Source of the DNA: Planctomycetales bacterium
Lineage (GTDB): Bacteria; Planctomycetota; Planctomycetia; Planctomycetales; Planctomycetaceae
DNA: 11,117 nt
NCBI GenBank assembly: GCA_020050375.1
Contig: JAGVKR010000592.1
Coordinates: 1-11,117 of the forward strand
Reading direction: 5' to 3'
The position numbers were made by a program, and so were the translations under genes. Numbering within the stretch: the first letter of the stretch is position 1; each line of letters begins with the position of its first letter. Below the pieces are notes generated by a model, which saw only the letters and a list, made by a program, of their open reading frames with translations, was not told the DNA's origin and ran no database searches. Below are positions 196-10,248 of the stretch, one piece after another.

Positions 196-942
196 ATGGA
201 GACGAAGTTACGCGTTGAGATCCTGCCGCAGCCGGACGACTTCACCTGCGGACCGACGTGCCTGCACGCGCTGTACCGCTACTTTGGCGATCACGTTTCG
301 TTGGAGCAGGTGGTTGCCGAAGTGTCGATGCTCGACAGCGGGGGGACGCTCGACGTGCTGCTGGCCAACCACGCCCTCAAGCGCGGGTACACGGCCAAGA
401 TCTTCACCTACAACGTCGAGCTGTTCTATCCCACCTGGTTCGGCCCGGCGGTGGTCGATCTCCGTCAGCGGCTAAGGCTTCAGATGGAGTACAAACGCAA
501 CCCGAAACTCCGCATCGCGACCCAGGCCTATCTCGAATTCCTCGAGCGCGGCGGGCAGATTCGATACGAGGTTTTGACCACGGCCCTCGTCCGCAAATAC
601 CTCGGCCGTGAGATTCCGATTTTGACCGGGCTGAGCGCGACGTACCTTTACGGCACTTCGCGTGAGGATGGGCCCGAAGGACGGCCCGACGACGTTCGGG
701 GCAAGCCGGCCGGTCACTTCGTGGTGTTGTGTGGTTATGACAAAGAAACCCGCGACGTGCTCGTCGCCGACCCGCTCCGAAAAAACCCGCTCTCGGGAAC
801 GAATCAATACCTCGTCAGTATCGACCGCGTCATCTGCGCCATCCTGCTGGGGATCGTGACGTATGACGCCAATTTTCTGATCATCGAACCACGCCAGCAC
901 TCCAGACAGGCCCGCCGTGTCGATTCTCATCGTCGTCAATAA
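196..942 (+). CDS. C39-like (papain-fold) cysteine peptidase or amidase of an amidoligase cassette
   Basis: The 248-aa protein carries a complete C39-type active site. Q12 would be the oxyanion-hole residue and C18 the nucleophile (QPDDFTCGPTC). H174 follows in GHFVVLCGYD and D192 in VADP. There is no signal peptide or membrane segment, so it should be cytoplasmic. It is not part of an ABC exporter, unlike classical bacteriocin-processing C39 domains. I chose the ATG at 196 because homology-like sequence starts just after it and GGAAG lies 9 nt upstream; an in-frame TTG at 133 would add 21 residues with no recognisable features. The gene overlaps the next one by 26 nt, which implies translational coupling with the ATP-grasp ligase. 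Family knowledge supports a thiol hydrolase or transpeptidase. The inferred role is trimming, hydrolysing or transferring the peptide or amide made by the two downstream ligases. The actual substrate is unknown. Confidence 0.8.
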   Translation: METKLRVEILPQPDDFTCGPTCLHALYRYFGDHVSLEQVVAEVSMLDSGGTLDVLLANHALKRGYTAKIFTYNVELFYPTWFGPAVVDLRQRLRLQMEYKRNPKLRIATQAYLEFLERGGQIRYEVLTTALVRKYLGREIPILTGLSATYLYGTSREDGPEGRPDDVRGKPAGHFVVLCGYDKETRDVLVADPLRKNPLSGTNQYLVSIDRVICAILLGIVTYDANFLIIEPRQHSRQARRVDSHRRQ

Positions 943-2389
943 CGTCGCCGAGTGGAAATTCCACATCCCGGGAGTCGAGGTGATCGATGCCTGGTCGTAT
1001 CTCACCCGCCCCGAATACGGTGCGCTGCGGACGGTCAAGCTGTTCAACTTGTGCCGTTCGTATCGGTATCAAACGGCCGGGTATTACGTGACGCTGCTGG
1101 CGACGGCGCGGGGCCACAAGCCGTTGCCCAGCATCACCACGATTCAGGACATGAAGTCGCAGACGATGGTTCGCTTCGTCTCCGACGATCTCGACGATCT
1201 GATTCAGCACACTTTGGCCCCGATTCACTCCGACGAATTCGCGCTCAGCGTCTATTTCGGGCGAAACCTGGCCAAACGCCACGACCGACTGAGCCTGCAC
1301 CTGTTCAATCTGTTTCAAGCGCCACTCCTGAGGGCCCATTTCGAGCGGTGCCATGAGCGCTGGCAGCTCAAGAACATCAGTCCGATCCCGGTGGGAGAGA
1401 TCCCGGAGCCGCATCATGGGTTCGTGATCCAGGAGGCCACCGAGTATTTCGCCGGCCGCCGCTCGAGCGTGCGCAAGCGCGTGCCCGCCAAGTACGACCT
1501 GGCCATTCTGCACAATCCGCAGGACGAACTTTCCCCCTCCGACACCAAGGCGCTCGATCGCTTCGTCAAAGCGGCCGAATCGATGGGGCTCGCGACCGAA
1601 TTGGTCACGCGCGACGACTATGCCCGCATCGCCGAGTTCGATGCGTTGTTCATCCGCGAGACGACGCAGGTCAACCATCACACGTATCGCTTCGCCCGTC
1701 GCGCGACGACCGAGGGGCTGGTCGTCATCGACGATCCCGAGTCGATCCTGAAATGCGCCAATAAAGTCTATCTGGCCGAATTGATGGCTCGGCATAAGGT
1801 TCCCGTGCCGCGGACCATGATCGTTCACGAAGACAATGTCGGCGAGATTGGCAAGACGCTCGGCTTTCCCGTCGTGCTCAAGCAGCCCGACGCTGCTTTC
1901 TCGCAGGGAGTCGTGAAGGCCAATAACGAGCAGGAGTTGCTTGAGCACGCCACTGCCTTTCTGGAGCGCTCGGAGCTTCTCATTGCGCAGGAGTATCTCC
2001 CTACCACATTCGACTGGCGGATCGGGGTCTGCGACGGGCAACCGCTGTACGCCTGCAAATACCACATGGCGACCGGTCACTGGCAGATCGTCAAGAACGA
2101 CGGCGGAGGGGTTCGCAAATACGGCCGCGCCGAAACGATACCCGTCGAAATCGCCCCCCGTCACGTGGTCCGTGCCGCGCTCAAAGCGGCCAATCTGATC
2201 GGCAAGGGCCTTTACGGCGTCGACGTCAAACAGACCAACGGACATTGCTTCGTCATCGAAGTCAACGACAACCCGAACATCGATGCCGGGGTCGAGGACA
2301 AGATTCTCAAAGGTGAATTGTACCGTCGGATCATGGAGACTTTCCTCCGGCGGCTTGAGCGCAAGCGTGCGGGCATTGACGAATCGTGA
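917..2389 (+). CDS. RimK-family ATP-grasp ligase with RLAN-like N-terminal domain
   Basis: The 490-aa protein would form an amide bond between a carboxylate (through an acyl-phosphate) and an amine. Residues 1-150 resemble the RLAN domain (RimK-like ATP-grasp N-terminal), residues about 190-275 form the pre-ATP-grasp region, and about 280-475 the ATP-grasp fold. Visible signatures are the nucleotide-binding lysine in PVVLKQ (K322), the EYLP hinge (359-362), DWRI (366-369), and the metal ligands D436 (GVDVK), E448 and N450 (EVNDNPNID). The start is GTG at 917, inside the preceding gene, with AGACAGG ending 6 nt upstream. No in-frame ATG precedes M80, and the N-terminus MSILIVVNN suits a beta strand. 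True RimK is about 300 aa, so this longer form is not expected to modify ribosomal protein S6. The RLAN-GCS2-peptidase neighbourhood is known from comparative genomics; the product is not known to me. Confidence 0.88.
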   Translation: MSILIVVNNVAEWKFHIPGVEVIDAWSYLTRPEYGALRTVKLFNLCRSYRYQTAGYYVTLLATARGHKPLPSITTIQDMKSQTMVRFVSDDLDDLIQHTLAPIHSDEFALSVYFGRNLAKRHDRLSLHLFNLFQAPLLRAHFERCHERWQLKNISPIPVGEIPEPHHGFVIQEATEYFAGRRSSVRKRVPAKYDLAILHNPQDELSPSDTKALDRFVKAAESMGLATELVTRDDYARIAEFDALFIRETTQVNHHTYRFARRATTEGLVVIDDPESILKCANKVYLAELMARHKVPVPRTMIVHEDNVGEIGKTLGFPVVLKQPDAAFSQGVVKANNEQELLEHATAFLERSELLIAQEYLPTTFDWRIGVCDGQPLYACKYHMATGHWQIVKNDGGGVRKYGRAETIPVEIAPRHVVRAALKAANLIGKGLYGVDVKQTNGHCFVIEVNDNPNIDAGVEDKILKGELYRRIMETFLRRLERKRAGIDES

Positions 2390-2471
2390 CTGTCGTCGTT
2401 GACGTGTGCCAACTTCGCCGGTCGCTCGCCGGCCATCCCACTGATTGCTCCTTTGTCGCACGAACTGTCGC

Positions 2472-3725
2472 ATGAGTCCCCCGGCAGCGCTTCCGCTCTT
2501 TTCCGCCTTCGGGATCGAGCTTGAATACATGATCGTCGATGCCAGCACGCTGGGGGTCCGGCCGATCGCCGACGAGGTTCTTCGATCGTCGGATGGCGCG
2601 ATCACCGGTGAGATCGAGCGGGGCGCCACGAACTGGTCCAACGAGCTCGTCGCTCATGTCGTCGAATTGAAGGTCAGCGAGCCGGCCTGTTCGCTCGACG
2701 ATTTGCCGCAGTTGTTTCAGACGGAGATTCGGGAAATCAACGCTCGCCTATCACCGCACGGCGCCCGTTTGATGCCCGGCGGCATGCACCCCTGGATGAA
2801 CCCGCTTCGCGACACGAAGCTCTGGACGCACGAATACAACGAGGTCTACGAAGCCTTCGATCGGATCTTCAGTTGCCAGGGGCACGGCTGGTCGAATCTG
2901 CAAAGCGTTCATTTGAATCTCCCGTTTGCCGACGATCAGGACTTCGGCCGCCTGCATGCCGCCATCCGACTCGTATTGCCGATTCTGCCCGCGCTCACCG
3001 CCAGCTCTCCGGTGATGGACGGGCGCCTGACGGGGTTCCTCGACAATCGGCTGGAGGTGTACCGGACCAATTCGCGAAAGATTCCATCAATCGCCGGGCG
3101 CGTGATTCCGGAACCGGTCTACACGCGAGTCGATTACGAGCGGCAGATTCTGCAGCGGCTCTACGCCGACATCGCTCCGCACGATCCGGGGGGAATCCTC
3201 CAGCACGAATGGCTCAACGCCCGCGGAGCGATCGCCCGCTTTCAGCGGAGCGCGATTGAGATTCGCGTGATGGACGTCCAAGAGTGCCCGCGGGCTGACG
3301 TCGCTATCTGTGCGGCTGTTGTGGCGCTGCTTGAGGCCCTGGTCGACGAGCGATTCAGCAATCTGGCCGCGCAACAGGCCTTTGCTGTCGAGCCGCTCGA
3401 AAAAATCTTGTTGGCAACGATCCGCGATGCTGACCGGGCTGTGATTTCCGATGTGGCGTATCTCGACGCAGTGGGATATTCCGCCGGGCCATGCACGGCC
3501 GGCGAACTGTGGCGGTATCTGCTCGAAATTCTATGGAGAGAGAAACGGATGGATCTTGGCTGGCAGCCGGTCCTGGAAGTCATTACGAACGAAGGCCCGC
3601 TCGCCCGACGGATTGTCACGTCGCTCCAGGCAGCCGGTTTCAACCCGACCAACTCGCAACCGTTGCTTGAGCTCTATCGCAAGTTGTGTGACTGCCTGGA
3701 GCAGGGGGAATTGCTGAGAAGCTAA
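2472..3725 (+). CDS. GCS2-family carboxylate-amine ligase (YbdK-like)
   Basis: The 417-aa protein belongs to the glutamate-cysteine ligase family 2 of the glutamine-synthetase fold, which makes gamma-glutamyl-type amides with ATP. Visible motifs are the metal-binding FGIELEYMIVD at the N-terminus (E16, E18), a Glu in NELVAHVVELKVSEP (58-71), GMHPW (104-108), QSVHLNLPF (144-152) and EIRVMDVQECP (263-273). The length is typical for YbdK-like proteins. I chose ATG 2472 because the GxExE motif starts 13 residues in; an in-frame TTG at 2445 would add 9 residues. No convincing ribosome binding site is visible. The gene follows the ATP-grasp gene by 82 nt and probably shares its transcript. YbdK itself has only weak glutamate-cysteine ligase activity, so cysteine should not be assumed as substrate here. 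Together with the ATP-grasp enzyme it probably adds two successive amide bonds. Confidence 0.88.
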   Translation: MSPPAALPLFSAFGIELEYMIVDASTLGVRPIADEVLRSSDGAITGEIERGATNWSNELVAHVVELKVSEPACSLDDLPQLFQTEIREINARLSPHGARLMPGGMHPWMNPLRDTKLWTHEYNEVYEAFDRIFSCQGHGWSNLQSVHLNLPFADDQDFGRLHAAIRLVLPILPALTASSPVMDGRLTGFLDNRLEVYRTNSRKIPSIAGRVIPEPVYTRVDYERQILQRLYADIAPHDPGGILQHEWLNARGAIARFQRSAIEIRVMDVQECPRADVAICAAVVALLEALVDERFSNLAAQQAFAVEPLEKILLATIRDADRAVISDVAYLDAVGYSAGPCTAGELWRYLLEILWREKRMDLGWQPVLEVITNEGPLARRIVTSLQAAGFNPTNSQPLLELYRKLCDCLEQGELLRS

Positions 3726-3818
3726 CCTGCAGCGAAGAGACGCGCAGCAGCGAAACCATCCCGCCTTGCGTCTCGTAGCCGCGAGCACGATACTCCTGCG
3801 TCATACTGCTGAAGTGAA

Positions 3819-3843
3819 GACGTGCGAAGAGGCAAGCCCGGTG
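3819..3843 (+). repeat. Imperfect 25-nt direct repeat, copy 1
   Basis: This copy matches 4245-4269 at 23 of 25 positions. The shared core is GCGAAGAG, one variable base, then CAAGCCCGGTG. It lies in the spacer after the GCS2 gene; the second copy lies just after the 89-aa gene, so the pair brackets that small gene. It could be a dispersed intergenic element or the trace of a duplication. Confidence 0.6.
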
Positions 3844-3848
3844 GAAGA

Positions 3849-3924
3849 AGAGCTACAGAGATCAGCGCAGCAGAACGGCAGCCAAGCGCCTCTGCAGCGC
3901 CGACCTCTGTAGCTCTGCCGTTCT
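3849..3924 (+). other. Interlocked inverted repeats (pseudoknot-like element)
   Basis: AGAGCTACAGAG (3849-3860) is perfectly complementary to CTCTGTAGCTCT (3905-3916). AGAACGGCAG (3872-3881) is perfectly complementary to CTGCCGTTCT (3915-3924). The order is A-B-A'-B', not nested, and A' and B' share two bases. In RNA the two helices would form a pseudoknot or compete as alternative structures. CTCTGCAGC at 3891-3899 is a near copy of A' with one mismatch to A. The element ends 37 nt before the ATG of the 89-aa gene. It could be a terminator-like spacer or a regulatory leader; no U-tract follows. Confidence 0.5.
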
Positions 3925-3961
3925 CTCCCCGACTCGCGACTCCTTGTCCCCCAAGTGCTCC

Positions 3962-4231
3962 ATGAATTCCGGTGAATACTGGCGATCCTTGTTCGAGAAC
4001 TGGCCTGCGAGCATGCCCCGACGGGGGCTGCTGATTACGACGTTTGGCGAGGCGATCCCTTTCGTCAGTTATCTGCTCTCTCCCGGCATTCTGTTGCTGG
4101 AGCGGGACAAACCCGATAGCTTGGGGGCTCGTAAAGTGCTCGTCGCCTACGAAGCCATTTCTGCGCTGAAGATCACCGACGTCATCGACCTCGTCCGATT
4201 TCAGGAGCTCGGTTTTCAGTCTCCGAGCTGA
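3962..4231 (+). CDS. Small hypothetical protein, 89 aa
   Basis: I do not recognise a named family; it reads like a conserved orphan of planctomycetes. The N-terminal part has an aromatic/charged stretch (EYWRSLFENWP, residues 5-15), then RRGLLITTFGEAIPF (20-34) and LLLERDKPDSLGARKVLV (44-61), ending in ISALKITDVIDL (67-78). The alternation of hydrophobic residues suggests a small beta-rich domain, perhaps Sm- or SH3-like, and not a membrane protein. There are no cysteines or obvious catalytic motifs. I chose ATG 3962; an in-frame TTG at 3944 would add 6 residues. No Shine-Dalgarno sequence is visible. It sits between the GCS2 gene and the glucose dehydrogenase gene with 236 nt and 123 nt spacers, so it may be transcribed alone. 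GC-rich third positions support real coding. Confidence 0.7.
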   Translation: MNSGEYWRSLFENWPASMPRRGLLITTFGEAIPFVSYLLSPGILLLERDKPDSLGARKVLVAYEAISALKITDVIDLVRFQELGFQSPS

Positions 4232-4244
4232 ACGAGCTCGTGAG

Positions 4245-4269
4245 GACGCGCGAAGAGTCAAGCCCGGTG
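4245..4269 (+). repeat. Imperfect 25-nt direct repeat, copy 2
   Basis: Second copy of the repeat at 3819-3843, with 23 of 25 identical bases and the same orientation. It starts 13 nt after the stop of the 89-aa gene and lies in the 123-nt spacer before the glucose dehydrogenase gene. Confidence 0.6.
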
Positions 4270-4354
4270 AGAGTCGCGAAGATAAGCGAATGGCTGTGGC
4301 GCCGGTTCGTGGATCTGATTCCATCATTCAACTGAATTTCGAAATGACAACGAT

Positions 4355-5458
4355 ATGAAAGCGATTGCTGTTCGTCCCGGTCATGCCAGCAGTGTTCACC
4401 TGGCCGAGTTGCCCAAGCCTCGCGTCGACGACATTCCCGGCGGCCGCGGAGTTCTGGTGCGCGTTCTCAAGGTCGGAGTCGACGCGACCGACCGCGAAAT
4501 CAACGACGCTCTGTATGGCAATGCCCCTCCGGGGTACGACTTTCTCGTGCTGGGCCACGAATCGTTTGGGATCGTCGAAGAAGTCGGGGCCAACGTGCGG
4601 CACGTGAAACCCGGCGACTATGTGACCTGCACGGTCCGCCGCCCTGGGGGATCGATCTACGACAAGATCGGCCGTTCCGACATCACGAGCGAAGAGGTCT
4701 ACTACGAGCGGGGCATCAATCTGCTGCACGGGTTTCTCACCGAGCACTACGTCGACGATCTGGAATTCGTCGTGCGAATGCCGGTCGGCCTCAAGCATCT
4801 GCATGTGCTGGCCGAACCGATGAGCTGCGCCGCGAAAGCAGTCCAGCAGGCGTATGAGGCGCAGAAGCGATTGCAGGTGTGGGACCCCAAGCTGGCATTC
4901 GTCACGGGGGCGGGGCAGATCGGTTTGCTGTCGACGTTGATTCTCCGGCTGCGCGGGCTTGAAGTCTTTACGTTCGCGCGTGGCCTGGCGCCGTGCCTCA
5001 AATCGGAGATTGTCGAAGGGATGGGGGCGCGCTATGTCAGCACGAAGCAGAAGACGCTCAAGCAGTTGGTGGGGGAAGTCGGAAAGCCTGATCTGATCAT
5101 CGAAGCCACCGGTTCGAGCGAAATCGCCTTCGGGGCGATGGAAGTTCTCGGACACAATGGAGTCGAAGTTTGGACAAGCATCACCGGAGGCCAGCGGCGG
5201 ACCGACGTTCCCTCCGACCATGTGAACCTGAACTGGGTTTTGGGGAACAAGTTGCTCCTCGGCTCGGTCAACGCCAATCGCCGTCATTTCGAGCTGGGGA
5301 TCGCCGACCTGGCCTTGGGAGAAGTCACCTATCCGGGGGTGATCGAACGGATCCTCACGAACCCCGTCGCCGGCATCGGCAATTTCAAGGAAATGATGCG
5401 GCTGCTCGTCGAAGACAAAGACGCCCTCAAAGTCTACGTCGACGTCGCCGAAGGATAA
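4355..5458 (+). CDS. Glucose 1-dehydrogenase-like medium-chain dehydrogenase (Zn-type)
   Basis: The 367-aa protein resembles archaeal-type glucose 1-dehydrogenases of the zinc-dependent MDR superfamily, which oxidise D-glucose to gluconolactone with NAD(P)+. The catalytic domain shows [10 protein letters not shown] (40-49), LGHES (66-70) and AEP (153-155). The Rossmann domain carries TGAGQIG (184-190) and a glucose-dehydrogenase-type C-terminal part. Expected zinc ligands are D43, H68 and E154. The usual Cys of GxCGTD is Asp here, as in haloarchaeal glucose dehydrogenases. The lobe that normally holds four structural-zinc cysteines (about 92-120) has only C92, so that site is absent. R209, just after the second Rossmann strand, is compatible with NADP use. 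The ATG at 4355 has no clear ribosome binding site. A related sugar or polyol dehydrogenase remains possible. Confidence 0.82.
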
Positions 5459-5563: not shown

Positions 5564-6487
5564 TTACGTGACGGCGAGGAAGCGGGCGAGGGCCTGGGCG
5601 GGGACGAGCAGCAGGACGACGGCGAGGGCGTACATCCTGTTCTCGTTGACGAAGAACACCATCGACGCGTCGAGCATCACCAGCGACATAAGCAGCGTTC
5701 GCACCGATGCCTGCACTTTGGCCGGGACCGGATCGAAAATCGTATTGGCCAATCGACGATTGAGGATGACGCCGGTCGCCGCCAGCAGCAGCAAAGTGTT
5801 CCAGCTTCGAGGGACCATGGACGGATCGTGCCAGTGCAGGGCGAACGCGGCCAGCAGGATCAGCCCGAAATTGATCACTGCGAGCGCTCCTCCAAGTTGC
5901 CAGCGGCTGCTGATGCCGGCCTCCTTGCGGGCGAACCAGGTCACGCCGGTGATGTAGATTCCGAGCGCCAGTGCCACGTGCAATTGTGGATGAGCCCAGA
6001 CAGAGGCCAGCGTTGGGATCCCGGCGATCGGGTCGTCGGCCGTGCTCGCGCCCAGCATCACGTTGAGAAATCGGCACGCTCCCATCGCCGGCGGCCCGAG
6101 CGGCGTCGATTTGAGCGCTCCGTCATAGAGGAAGATCGCTGCCACGATCATTCCCGCGACGATCGCGCTCTGTGTCCCGACGAAGGCGGCGGCCGCGACG
6201 CCGACGACCATCAACGCGGCGCCGAATCGAATCGCCGCCGGAAGTGATACGCGACCGGATGGAATCGGTCGGTTGGGGCGCTCTGCGGCATCGACCTTGC
6301 GGTCGAAGACGTCGTTGAACACCATTCCCGCCAGATACAGCCCCGCCGACGAAACCAGCAACAAGCCGAAGTCACGCTCCGGCGAAAGATCGGGCTGCGT
6401 CAGCAGGTAGCCGAGAAAAATATCGGCCAGCGCCGTAAAGACCGCTGCGAACCGACACAGTTGCAGGTACGAGAGCAACCTTTGCAT
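5564..6487 (-). CDS. UbiA-superfamily prenyltransferase, EboC-like
   Basis: The 307-aa polytopic membrane protein has both UbiA aspartate motifs. The first is NDVFDRKVD (58-66), followed by RPNRPIPSGR (70-79). The second is YDGALK (121-126). These coordinate Mg-prenyl diphosphate. About eight to nine hydrophobic segments alternate through the chain, starting at residues 12-29 and 41-57 and ending near 304. The N-terminal phrase TALADIFLGYL and the MGACRFLNVMLG segment (135-146) look more like EboC, the UbiA-like member of the ebo cluster, than like ubiquinone or menaquinone UbiA/MenA. None of the other ebo genes is present here. The ATG at 6487 lacks a good ribosome binding site. It follows the phosphoglucomutase gene on the same strand by 89 nt and may be co-transcribed. 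The prenyl acceptor is unknown. Confidence 0.83.
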   Translation of the reverse strand: MQRLLSYLQLCRFAAVFTALADIFLGYLLTQPDLSPERDFGLLLVSSAGLYLAGMVFNDVFDRKVDAAERPNRPIPSGRVSLPAAIRFGAALMVVGVAAAAFVGTQSAIVAGMIVAAIFLYDGALKSTPLGPPAMGACRFLNVMLGASTADDPIAGIPTLASVWAHPQLHVALALGIYITGVTWFARKEAGISSRWQLGGALAVINFGLILLAAFALHWHDPSMVPRSWNTLLLLAATGVILNRRLANTIFDPVPAKVQASVRTLLMSLVMLDASMVFFVNENRMYALAVVLLLVPAQALARFLAVT

Positions 6488-8659: not shown

Positions 8660-9097
8660 TCAACCTGCCGCAACGGCGATCTTTCTCGAAGTGGCCTCTT
8701 TGGCCAAGGGCAGTGACAGCTTCAGAATTCCATCCTTGATCGTGGCTGTGATCCCATTGCGGTCAATTTCGTTCGTCAACGTGAACGACCGCTCGTAATC
8801 GCCGATTCCGTACTCTTCATAACTCAGCTTGTAGCCCTCCGGGGTTTCTCCGCTCACGACGCCTTTCACGGTCAGCACGTTTTTCTCGACCGTCACGTCG
8901 ATCCCGTTTTCATCGACACCCGGCATGTCGGCGACCAGCAGGAGGGCCTCGCCCGTCTCCACGATGTCGACCAGCGGCACATAGACCTTTCGGGCCTTTG
9001 TCCGTTCGGTTCCCTCGGGTGTTGTCGATTCCTGCTTGTCAGCGTTTTTCGCCTCGTTTCGGACATCGCAACATTGGTTTCGAGAATTCGCGTTCAT
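8660..9097 (-). CDS. Hsp20-family small heat-shock protein (second of the pair)
   Basis: The 145-aa alpha-crystallin-domain chaperone would bind unfolding proteins without ATP and form oligomers. Residues 1-38 are a polar, charged N-terminal arm containing CC at 9-10. The crystallin domain spans about 39-131, with VYVPLVDIVETGEALLLVADMPG at its start and the diagnostic A-x-x-x-x-GILxL pattern at ATIKDGILKLSLP (118-130). An I-x-V tail motif (IAV, 140-142) can dock into neighbouring subunits. I chose ATG 9097, with AAAGGA 10 nt upstream. A TTG at 9154 overlapping the previous stop (TTGA) would add 19 residues (MNRQVEPTAP...) and cannot be excluded. It is second in a two-gene operon, 53 nt after its paralogue. 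The two differ strongly in the N-terminal arm, which suggests distinct clients or hetero-oligomers. Confidence 0.92.
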   Translation of the reverse strand: MNANSRNQCCDVRNEAKNADKQESTTPEGTERTKARKVYVPLVDIVETGEALLLVADMPGVDENGIDVTVEKNVLTVKGVVSGETPEGYKLSYEEYGIGDYERSFTLTNEIDRNGITATIKDGILKLSLPLAKEATSRKIAVAAG

Positions 9098-9144
9098 GGG
9101 AGGTTTTTCCTTTCTTGAGTCAGAGGGCGCAGTCGGTTCAACTT

Positions 9145-9160
9145 GCCGGTTCAAACCGGC
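9145..9160. other. Intercistronic hairpin at the hsp20 stop codon
   Basis: GCCGGT (9145-9150) and ACCGGC (9155-9160) form a perfect 6-bp stem around TCAA. The stem-loop contains the stop codon (9151-9153) of the first hsp20 gene. No T-tract follows on either strand, so it is unlikely to terminate. An mRNA-processing or translational-coupling role between the two hsp20 genes is possible. Confidence 0.45.
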
Positions 9161-9600
9161 TTCACCGAAATTTTGCGCGGTTTTTGTGTTTCGGGGCGAG
9201 TCATCTTCACCCGCAGGATTCCCTTCTCGTACGCCGCTTCGGTCCGGGAAGGATCGACCTCGAACGGAAGCTTCAACGACCGGCGGAATTGTCCGCTGGG
9301 ACGTTCGCGACGATGAAAGCTGGCCCCTTCCGTCGGTACATCAGCCGGCCGCTCGCTGCTCACTGTCACTGCGTCGCCCGTGACCGTCACATCGACTTGC
9401 GACGGGTCGACTCCGGACATTTCGAGCGTCAGCAGCAGATCGTCCTCGCGGGCATAGAGATTGACCGGCGGGAATTCGCGAGCGACCGTACCGGCGTGAG
9501 ACCGGGCATCAGCCAGCAGGCGGCTCATTTCGTGTTGCAGGTGGCCCATCTCGCGCCAGGGATCCCAAATCCGGCCGCCAAATCGATTGAGCAAGTTCAT
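9151..9600 (-). CDS. Hsp20-family small heat-shock protein (first of the pair)
   Basis: The 149-aa protein has the classic bacterial class A-like layout. The N-terminal arm (1-44) includes WDPWREMGHLQHEMSRLL (12-29), typical of Hsp20. The crystallin domain spans about 45-135, with LLLTLEMSGVDPSQVDVTV (55-73) and the AAYEKGILRVKM signature (122-133). The C-terminal tail has an I-x-V motif (ISV, 144-146). The ATG at 9600 has a strong AAGGAG 8 nt upstream, the clearest ribosome binding site in the window; an in-frame GTG/ATG-type start at 9651 would add 17 atypical residues. It is the first gene of an operon with the second Hsp20, and inverted repeats just upstream may control it. It acts in the cytoplasm as an ATP-independent holdase. 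Confidence 0.94.
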   Translation of the reverse strand: MNLLNRFGGRIWDPWREMGHLQHEMSRLLADARSHAGTVAREFPPVNLYAREDDLLLTLEMSGVDPSQVDVTVTGDAVTVSSERPADVPTEGASFHRRERPSGQFRRSLKLPFEVDPSRTEAAYEKGILRVKMTRPETQKPRKISVKPV

Positions 9601-10248
9601 GGAATTCTCCTTTGTGAATGGGGAACCGAAGACCGTATGACCAACGGTCACGCGGGGCGCGCAGACGCTCTCCAGCCCGGGACTTGCGGATATCCGCCGT
9701 CCGGTCGAACTGTCGCCCCGTGTTGGTTTGTTCGTTCAATGAAAAATGCAAAGTCCGTGCCCAACGGGATTCACCCGATTTGGAACAAAGTCGCGACGGC
9801 CATTTGCTGACGGCGACCGGAAAGCAAATGGGATTCTGAAGCCAACTTGTGGCGACAGTCCTGATAGCCAAAAGTGGTTTTGAGGCACTTGCTGTCCGAT
9901 GAGCATTTGATTTTGGCAGTCGCCCAATGAACGATCGGCGAACTTCTGACTGCCGATTTGACACCGATGCGCGGACGGCGCGACTGATGTTCCGGTTATG
10001 GTGCAGCCAATTTGGCAGCCGGATGCTTTCCGAAGCAAAAGTCGATCACCTTGCGATGGCCGCCCGCTTTCGGTTTCGATTATGACATCCGTGCGGACTA
10101 TGCCTCCTGTCGGGAGAATTCCCTGCCACAGTCGGCGCCGATCGAACGGGTTATGGCAACTAGACCCCCGGGGGAAACCGATGGAATGGATGCGATTCCG
10201 CGCCATGGACGACAGCGCGGGCCGGATCTGACGAAAAGAGTGCCAGGG
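9601..10248. other. Long non-coding spacer with several inverted repeats
   Basis: No convincing protein is encoded here: the open frames have atypical, Cys/Arg/Ser-rich translations without motifs. Besides the elements listed separately, it holds CCATTTGCT (9800-9808) paired with AGCAAATGG (9823-9831). It also holds GGCGAC (9851-9856) plus GCCAAAA (9867-9873) facing TTTTGGC (9911-9917) plus GTCGCC (9919-9924), and CCCCCGGGGG (10165-10174). The base composition looks less GC-rich than the neighbouring genes between about 9720 and 10000. It must contain the divergent promoters for the hsp20 operon and for the membrane-protein gene. A small RNA gene is possible but not shown. Confidence 0.5.
9631..9649. 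promoter_or_regulatory. Inverted repeat GACCGT-N7-ACGGTC, candidate hsp20 operator
   Basis: Perfect 6-bp arms at 9631-9636 and 9644-9649 are separated by 7 nt and lie 31-49 nt upstream of the first hsp20 ATG. This could be a repressor site or a 5'-UTR hairpin of the hsp20 message. It is neither CIRCE nor a recognised HAIR/ROSE element. Nearby, GCGGATATCCGC at 9686-9697 is a perfect 12-bp palindrome. Confidence 0.35.

Follow-up and report, generated by a model that had tools for sequence, protein, structure and literature searches.

The window analysed here is one whole contig of 11117 nt (JAGVKR010000592.1) from a Planctomycetales bacterium, and it carries a cassette of three genes for a C39-like thiol enzyme, a ligase composed of an RLAN domain and a RimK-like ATP-grasp domain (RLAN-ATP-grasp), and a GCS2 carboxylate-amine ligase. 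The main new regularity of our analysis, for which priority in print is not claimed, is that the RLAN-ATP-grasp ligase occurs with GCS2 or with a GNAT acetyltransferase and hardly ever with both. The pattern suggests that GCS2 and GNAT supply alternative amine caps, gamma-glutamyl and acetyl respectively, in a peptide ligation by the ATP-grasp enzyme, and we give about even odds (a probability of roughly 0.5) to the reading that a short non-ribosomal peptide with an N-cap is made and recycled by the cassette in the cytoplasm. The locus belongs to a known, experimentally uncharacterised kind, and the cooperation of such genes is said to have been predicted earlier: Iyer et al. reportedly described in 2009 neighbourhoods of RLAN/ATP-grasp, GCS2 and papain-like genes, with novel peptide metabolites or tags as predicted products. 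No experimental work on the cassette was found in the literature searched, with most subscription papers out of reach. The features of the cassette are as follows.

196-942, + strand: gene 1, C39-like papain-fold thiol enzyme, predicted (trans)amidase; ATG start, 248 aa; PF13529/PF03412, invariant residues, AlphaFold2 model
917-942, + strand: overlap of gene 1 and gene 2, exactly 26 nt
917-2389, + strand: gene 2, RLAN domain and RimK-like ATP-grasp ligase; GTG start, 490 aa; PF14401 and PF08443
2472-3725, + strand: gene 3, GCS2 carboxylate-amine ligase; 417 aa from the likelier ATG, within the open frame 2445-3725

Exchange of GCS2 and GNAT beside the ligase

A set of 159 RLAN-ATP-grasp loci was compared, consisting of 19 loci from the family (including the window), 80 loci on named contigs and 60 loci from the phylum. 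Those on named contigs were the best-scoring 80 among at least 583 confirmed candidates and therefore lean towards close relatives; a phylum sample of 294 genomes is less biased. Neighbours were counted as same-strand matches within 4 kb of the ligase. For the table of partners and the ligase tree, 152 loci were used, after removal of 4 loci whose ligase match was shorter than 1200 nt in one frame (short or split) and of 3 duplicates (L180, L181 and L191). Loci added later entered only the co-occurrence count in the 294 genomes and the comparison of split frames, L200 being already among the 159.

Among the 152 loci, 124 had GCS2 only, 13 had GNAT only, 14 had neither, and a single locus, L064, had both, with its GNAT 2 kb away. 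The exchange extended to whole genomes, in that the cassette GCS2 was absent genome-wide from all 13 GNAT-type genomes searched, and 18 of the 21 planctomycete genomes with RLAN and without GCS2 had GNAT beside the ligase. A genome-wide GCS2 search covered 5 of the 14 neither-type loci, all in planctomycete genomes, and found GCS2 elsewhere in G048, G053, G046 and G036 (in the last as two pieces on other contigs), and not in G168. A quickly built ligase tree of the 152 rows left 47 branches open. Its starred branches require no fewer than 3 switches in the GNAT label, and within a starred set a Nevskiaceae group with GNAT (L104, L133, L139 and L142) is nested inside the GCS2 type. GNAT is also fused to RLAN-ATP-grasp in L190 and L192. 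Since each of the two enzymes acylates amines and one stands in for the other, an N-cap is the simplest role common to GCS2 and GNAT.

Conservation of the cassette and of its order

RLAN was present in 19 of 61 genomes of the family and in 75 of the 294 genomes of the phylum. In the same 294 genomes the cassette GCS2 was found in 57, of which 54 also had RLAN (Fisher p 1e-37, uncorrected for kinship). The cassette-type C39, searched with up to 9 candidates scored per genome, was found in 51, and 50 of these had RLAN. Three genomes (G064, G246 and G325) had a cassette-type GCS2 with no RLAN match in the genome. In the source genome (66.6% complete), searches found one RLAN, one GCS2 and one cassette-type C39, all of them in the window.

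The order of the genes was strictly kept. Over the 159 loci, C39 was found in 122 and lay upstream of the ligase in all 122 (median gap 28 nt, farthest 2360 nt), while GCS2 was found in 128 and lay downstream in all 128 (median gap 30 nt). A fourth gene for an N-formylglutamate-amidohydrolase-like protein (FGase) was found in 79 loci, again always downstream, giving the order C39, RLAN-ATP-grasp, GCS2 and, where present, FGase. Listings of the loci contained no opposite-strand match to C39, GCS2 or FGase near the ligase. With every C39 upstream and every GCS2 downstream, the adjacency of these genes is not due to chance. All three genes in this order were found in 12 phylum-level lineages, as named in the records: Planctomycetota, Tectomicrobia, Proteobacteria, Verrucomicrobia, Bacteroidetes, Desulfuromonadales/Desulfobulbaceae, Balneolaceae, Spirochaetes, Ignavibacteriales, Nitrospirota, Omnitrophota and Sumerlaeota. 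In five planctomycete loci (L194, L195, L196, L198 and L199), RLAN-ATP-grasp and GCS2 are fused in one frame of 990-1028 aa. When neighbours of at least 80 aa were clustered over 99 loci, none was common to more than 7 of the 99.

An earlier note on this DNA, made from the window, had described three + strand genes with intact motifs and a 26-nt overlap, all of which we could confirm, with the start of GCS2 corrected to the likelier ATG at 2472. It had proposed checking co-occurrence and order across Planctomycetes, with absence of the families together from other genomes counting against it. The families do co-occur, in a fixed order and also beyond Planctomycetes, so this objection does not apply.

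Papain-like partner and FGase

A C39 gene was nearby in 111 of 125 GCS2-type loci. On the GNAT side, L143, L145 and L193 carry a fusion of GNAT with the C39-like family DUF3335 (266-288 bits). DUF3335 was related to the C39-like family of the window by hhalign (96.3%, E 1.7e-9), and the Q, C, H and D residues of the two correspond in the alignment; DUF3335-GNAT fusions are also described in the available text of PMC10318531, which cites Iyer et al. 2009. Because a papain-like enzyme accompanies the ATP-grasp ligase in both forms, its more likely target is the bond made by that ligase.

FGase, which about half of the loci add downstream of GCS2, belongs to PF05013 (101 and 84 bits in the two members scanned). 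It adjoined the ligase in 77 of 125 GCS2 loci versus 0 of 13 GNAT loci (Fisher p 1.1e-5, uncorrected for kinship), and no FGase was found in any of the 6 GNAT-type genomes searched. As FGase accompanies GCS2 only, the glutamyl part is its more likely target. It was found neither in the source genome (66.6% complete) nor in G057, a genome of the same genus (93% complete).

The cassette proteins

All three cassette proteins look active, judging from their sequences. Fragments and stop-containing frames were excluded from the alignments used for residue invariance. Gene 1 matched PF13529 Peptidase_C39_2 (43.3 bits, cut-off 24) with the Q/C/H/D residues present, which places it in the C39-like superfamily, and PF03412 at 25.3 bits (cut-off 22) with no single stretch passing alone. 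Its Q12, C18, H174 and D192 were invariant in 76 of 76 aligned rows. Its AlphaFold2 model (pLDDT 91.9) gave papain-fold matches, with C39 peptidases and the primitive phytochelatin synthase Alr0975 tied as about equally similar; the papain fold of the model is what gene 1 has in common with this synthase and with the C39 leader peptidases. A bacteriocin-leader C39 peptidase was considered and rejected, gene 1 being a 248-aa protein without an ABC transporter domain. Among the 120 homologues listed, the given names were 'hypothetical protein', 'C39 family peptidase' and 'Peptidase_C39 like family'. The overlap of genes 1 and 2 was also 26 nt in the two relatives compared (L030 and L037). The C39 of L082 is split across two frames, by assembly error or decay.

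Gene 2 matched PF14401 RLAN (156.5 bits, cut-off 25) followed by PF08443 RimK (47.4 bits, cut-off 21), the composition of an RLAN-ATP-grasp protein, and its GTG start was backed by the aligned N-termini of relatives. K283, K322, D436, E448 and N450, which we take to be active-site residues, were invariant in 99 of 99 aligned rows. The nearest structural matches of its model were ArgX/LysX and RimK, over residues 193-482. Compared with these, the window ligase has the extra RLAN domain and no general link to LysW. It was assigned neither to the RimK family of alpha-L-glutamate ligases (TIGR00768, 75.6 bits versus 143.4) nor to LysX (TIGR02144, 76.8 bits versus 275.6). The RLAN and ATP-grasp parts lie in separate or shortened frames in 11 loci (L223-L230 and L200-L202), which come from G165 and from ten genomes of a single planctomycete family (f12); GNAT follows in 10 of the 11. 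An antisense frame over the ligase gene (881-2641, 586 aa) is probably a by-product of GC-rich coding.

Gene 3 matched PF04107 GCS2 (124.9 bits, cut-off 21) and contains the GhExE signature, known for GCS2 ligases from the available text of PMC2588565. The signature residues G14, E16 and E18 were invariant in 74 of 74 rows, as were H106, N149, R259 and E263. The GCS2 domain and signature are shared with YbdK and with EgtA of ergothioneine synthesis; gene 3 stayed below the cut-off of both families (TIGR02050, 68.7 bits versus 176.4, and TIGR03444, 19.2 bits versus 370.8). In L103 and L170, GCS2 is split across two frames, which is again either assembly error or decay.

Other features and rejected links

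After the cassette, the window encodes a glucose-dehydrogenase-like protein (4355-5458, + strand; PF16912, 148.5 bits), a UbiA-type prenyltransferase nearest to EboC (5564-6487, - strand; 195.9 bits, below the cut-off of 250), and a tandem HSP20 pair (8660-9651, - strand; 8660-9154 and 9151-9651, overlapping by 4 nt). A role in anti-phage defence was rejected, as the three window proteins and one FGase relative matched 0 PADLOC families. A link to arginine was rejected as too narrow; in four Pontibacter loci (L100, L117, L124 and L125), frames that we take, from their sequences, to be arginine-pathway-like lie upstream of the cassette, among them one resembling argininosuccinate lyase.

Discussion

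The argument for the following mechanism rests on patterns of occurrence. In the first step, given its family and intact signature, GCS2 would activate the gamma-carboxylate of glutamate with ATP and join it to the amine of a small partner X, giving gamma-Glu-X. RLAN-ATP-grasp would then activate a free carboxylate of the capped unit and add an amino acid Y, in the manner of LysX/ArgX and RimK, which act on glutamate carboxylates. In a third step the papain-like enzyme may form an acyl-enzyme on the product, resolved by hydrolysis or by transfer to a second acceptor, as in primitive phytochelatin synthase. Where FGase is present, this putative metalloenzyme would remove the glutamyl part as a fourth step; the genus of the window apparently has the first three steps only. 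In the GNAT form, an acetyl cap would take the place of the gamma-glutamyl cap.

A precedent for a capped peptide exists in NAGGN synthesis, where small amino acids likewise receive one acetyl group and are linked by one peptide bond. The fusions of GNAT with RLAN-grasp in L190 and L192 are presumably similar in make-up to Ngg of that pathway. According to the available text of PMC8070244, Ngg puts an acetyl group on one glutamine and links it to a second. NAGGN synthetase itself was rejected as an identity: no TIGR03103 match was listed for the window ligase or for L190, and L192 reached 20.9 bits against a cut-off of 569.

The earlier note had read the cassette as making a gamma-glutamyl-type or otherwise amide-linked compound. 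That reading is partly supported, in that the families co-occur in a fixed order and the two ligases are fused in five loci. The redox buffer, osmolyte or tag that it named are candidate products. The two observations most telling on the chemistry, FGase and the GCS2/GNAT exchange, were invisible from one window, and that account was incomplete to this extent.

Several observations weigh against the capped-peptide reading. No substrate, product or phenotype has been reported for the cassette. Three RLAN genomes matched neither form. For two the cause is obvious: in G168 a transposase-like frame directly precedes the ligase, and G290 retains C39 and has its ligase gene cut by a contig end. In G242 no partner was detected. 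Upstream of the orphan RLAN-ATP-grasp gene of L156, a frame at about 3267-4517 is, as we take it from its sequence, transposase-like. The GCS2 search in the 294 genomes scored at most 6 candidates per genome, the GNAT profile derives from genes found next to the ligase, and in L129 GNAT lies 2.3 kb from the ligase and may not belong to it. The papain-like partner was without a match nearby in 14 of 125 GCS2-type loci; of 15 genomes searched as GNAT-type, 5 had a strong DUF3335 match, 9 had none and G348 had two partial matches barely over the cut-off, so that this partner is not obligatory there. FGase is dispensable, and in 3 of 19 GCS2-side genomes without an adjacent FGase one is carried elsewhere. 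Finally, RimK itself is a protein modifier, and the extra RLAN domain could be a module that binds a protein.

Such an RLAN module would also suit peptide tagging, in which RLAN-ATP-grasp would add amino acids to the C-terminus or a side chain of a protein, GCS2 would be PafA-like or cap the tag, and its removal would fall to the thiol enzyme (and FGase). This is unlikely, at perhaps one chance in five, and has the most in its favour among the alternatives. The ligase domain is structurally nearest to ArgX/LysX, whose carrier is LysW, and to RimK, which acts on S6; PafA is proposed to derive from GCS2 in the available text of PMC2588565, and RimB counteracts RimK according to that of PMC12239564. 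On the other hand, the ligase scores below the RimK and LysX cut-offs, the GCS2/GNAT exchange reads more easily as capping of a small amine, and no candidate carrier appeared among the shared neighbours of at least 80 aa in the 99 loci, the size range that was clustered. LysW as a partner of the ligase was rejected as not general: none was found in the source genome (66.6% complete), and of 13 other cassette genomes 5 had a match at E <=0.001, of which 3 were over the cut-off. The earlier note had taken the lack of a nearby carrier to favour a free metabolite. The LysW results and the lack of any widely shared neighbour both fit a free product without proving one.

A thiol or metal-binding peptide like glutathione or phytochelatin appears less likely still. 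Here GCS2 would give gamma-Glu-Cys or a near relative, the ATP-grasp ligase would add the third residue, and the papain-like enzyme would be a transpeptidase of the phytochelatin-synthase type. Gene 1 had no match to PF05023 (phytochelatin synthase) in Pfam at E <=0.001. A search for phytochelatin synthase found it in 0 of 149 planctomycete genomes, a count that is uninformative, as the control genomes gave no match either.

Also improbable, slightly more so, is a catabolic route in which the cassette consumes a compound: a foreign amine would receive a gamma-glutamyl (or acetyl) group, undergo processing, and be released by the thiol enzyme and FGase. Both gamma-glutamylation and acetylation are known ways of handling amines, and the family name of FGase (PF05013) denotes an N-acyl glutamate hydrolase. 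However, a second ATP-using ligase next to GCS2 suggests building, and no oxidase, dehydrogenase or transporter family is widely shared near the cassette. That the genes are chance neighbours from unrelated pathways, as the lack of GCS2 or of the C39-like gene beside the ligase in some loci might suggest, is contradicted by the fixed order in 12 lineages, the fusions and the genome-wide co-occurrence, and is hardly credible.

The capped-peptide reading can be extended, tentatively and with somewhat less than an even chance, to all the lineages concerned: RLAN-ATP-grasp may make a bacteria-wide family of small non-ribosomal peptides, with a lineage-specific cap that is either gamma-glutamyl (GCS2, often with FGase removing it) or acetyl (GNAT), and commonly with a dedicated papain-like transamidase. 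If this is true, bacteria in a dozen phylum-level lineages would share one kind of small peptide, whose three to four genes lend themselves readily to expression and deletion. The GCS2/GNAT exchange would then offer a testable chemical clue, directing the search to metabolites that differ only in having a gamma-glutamyl or an acetyl cap.

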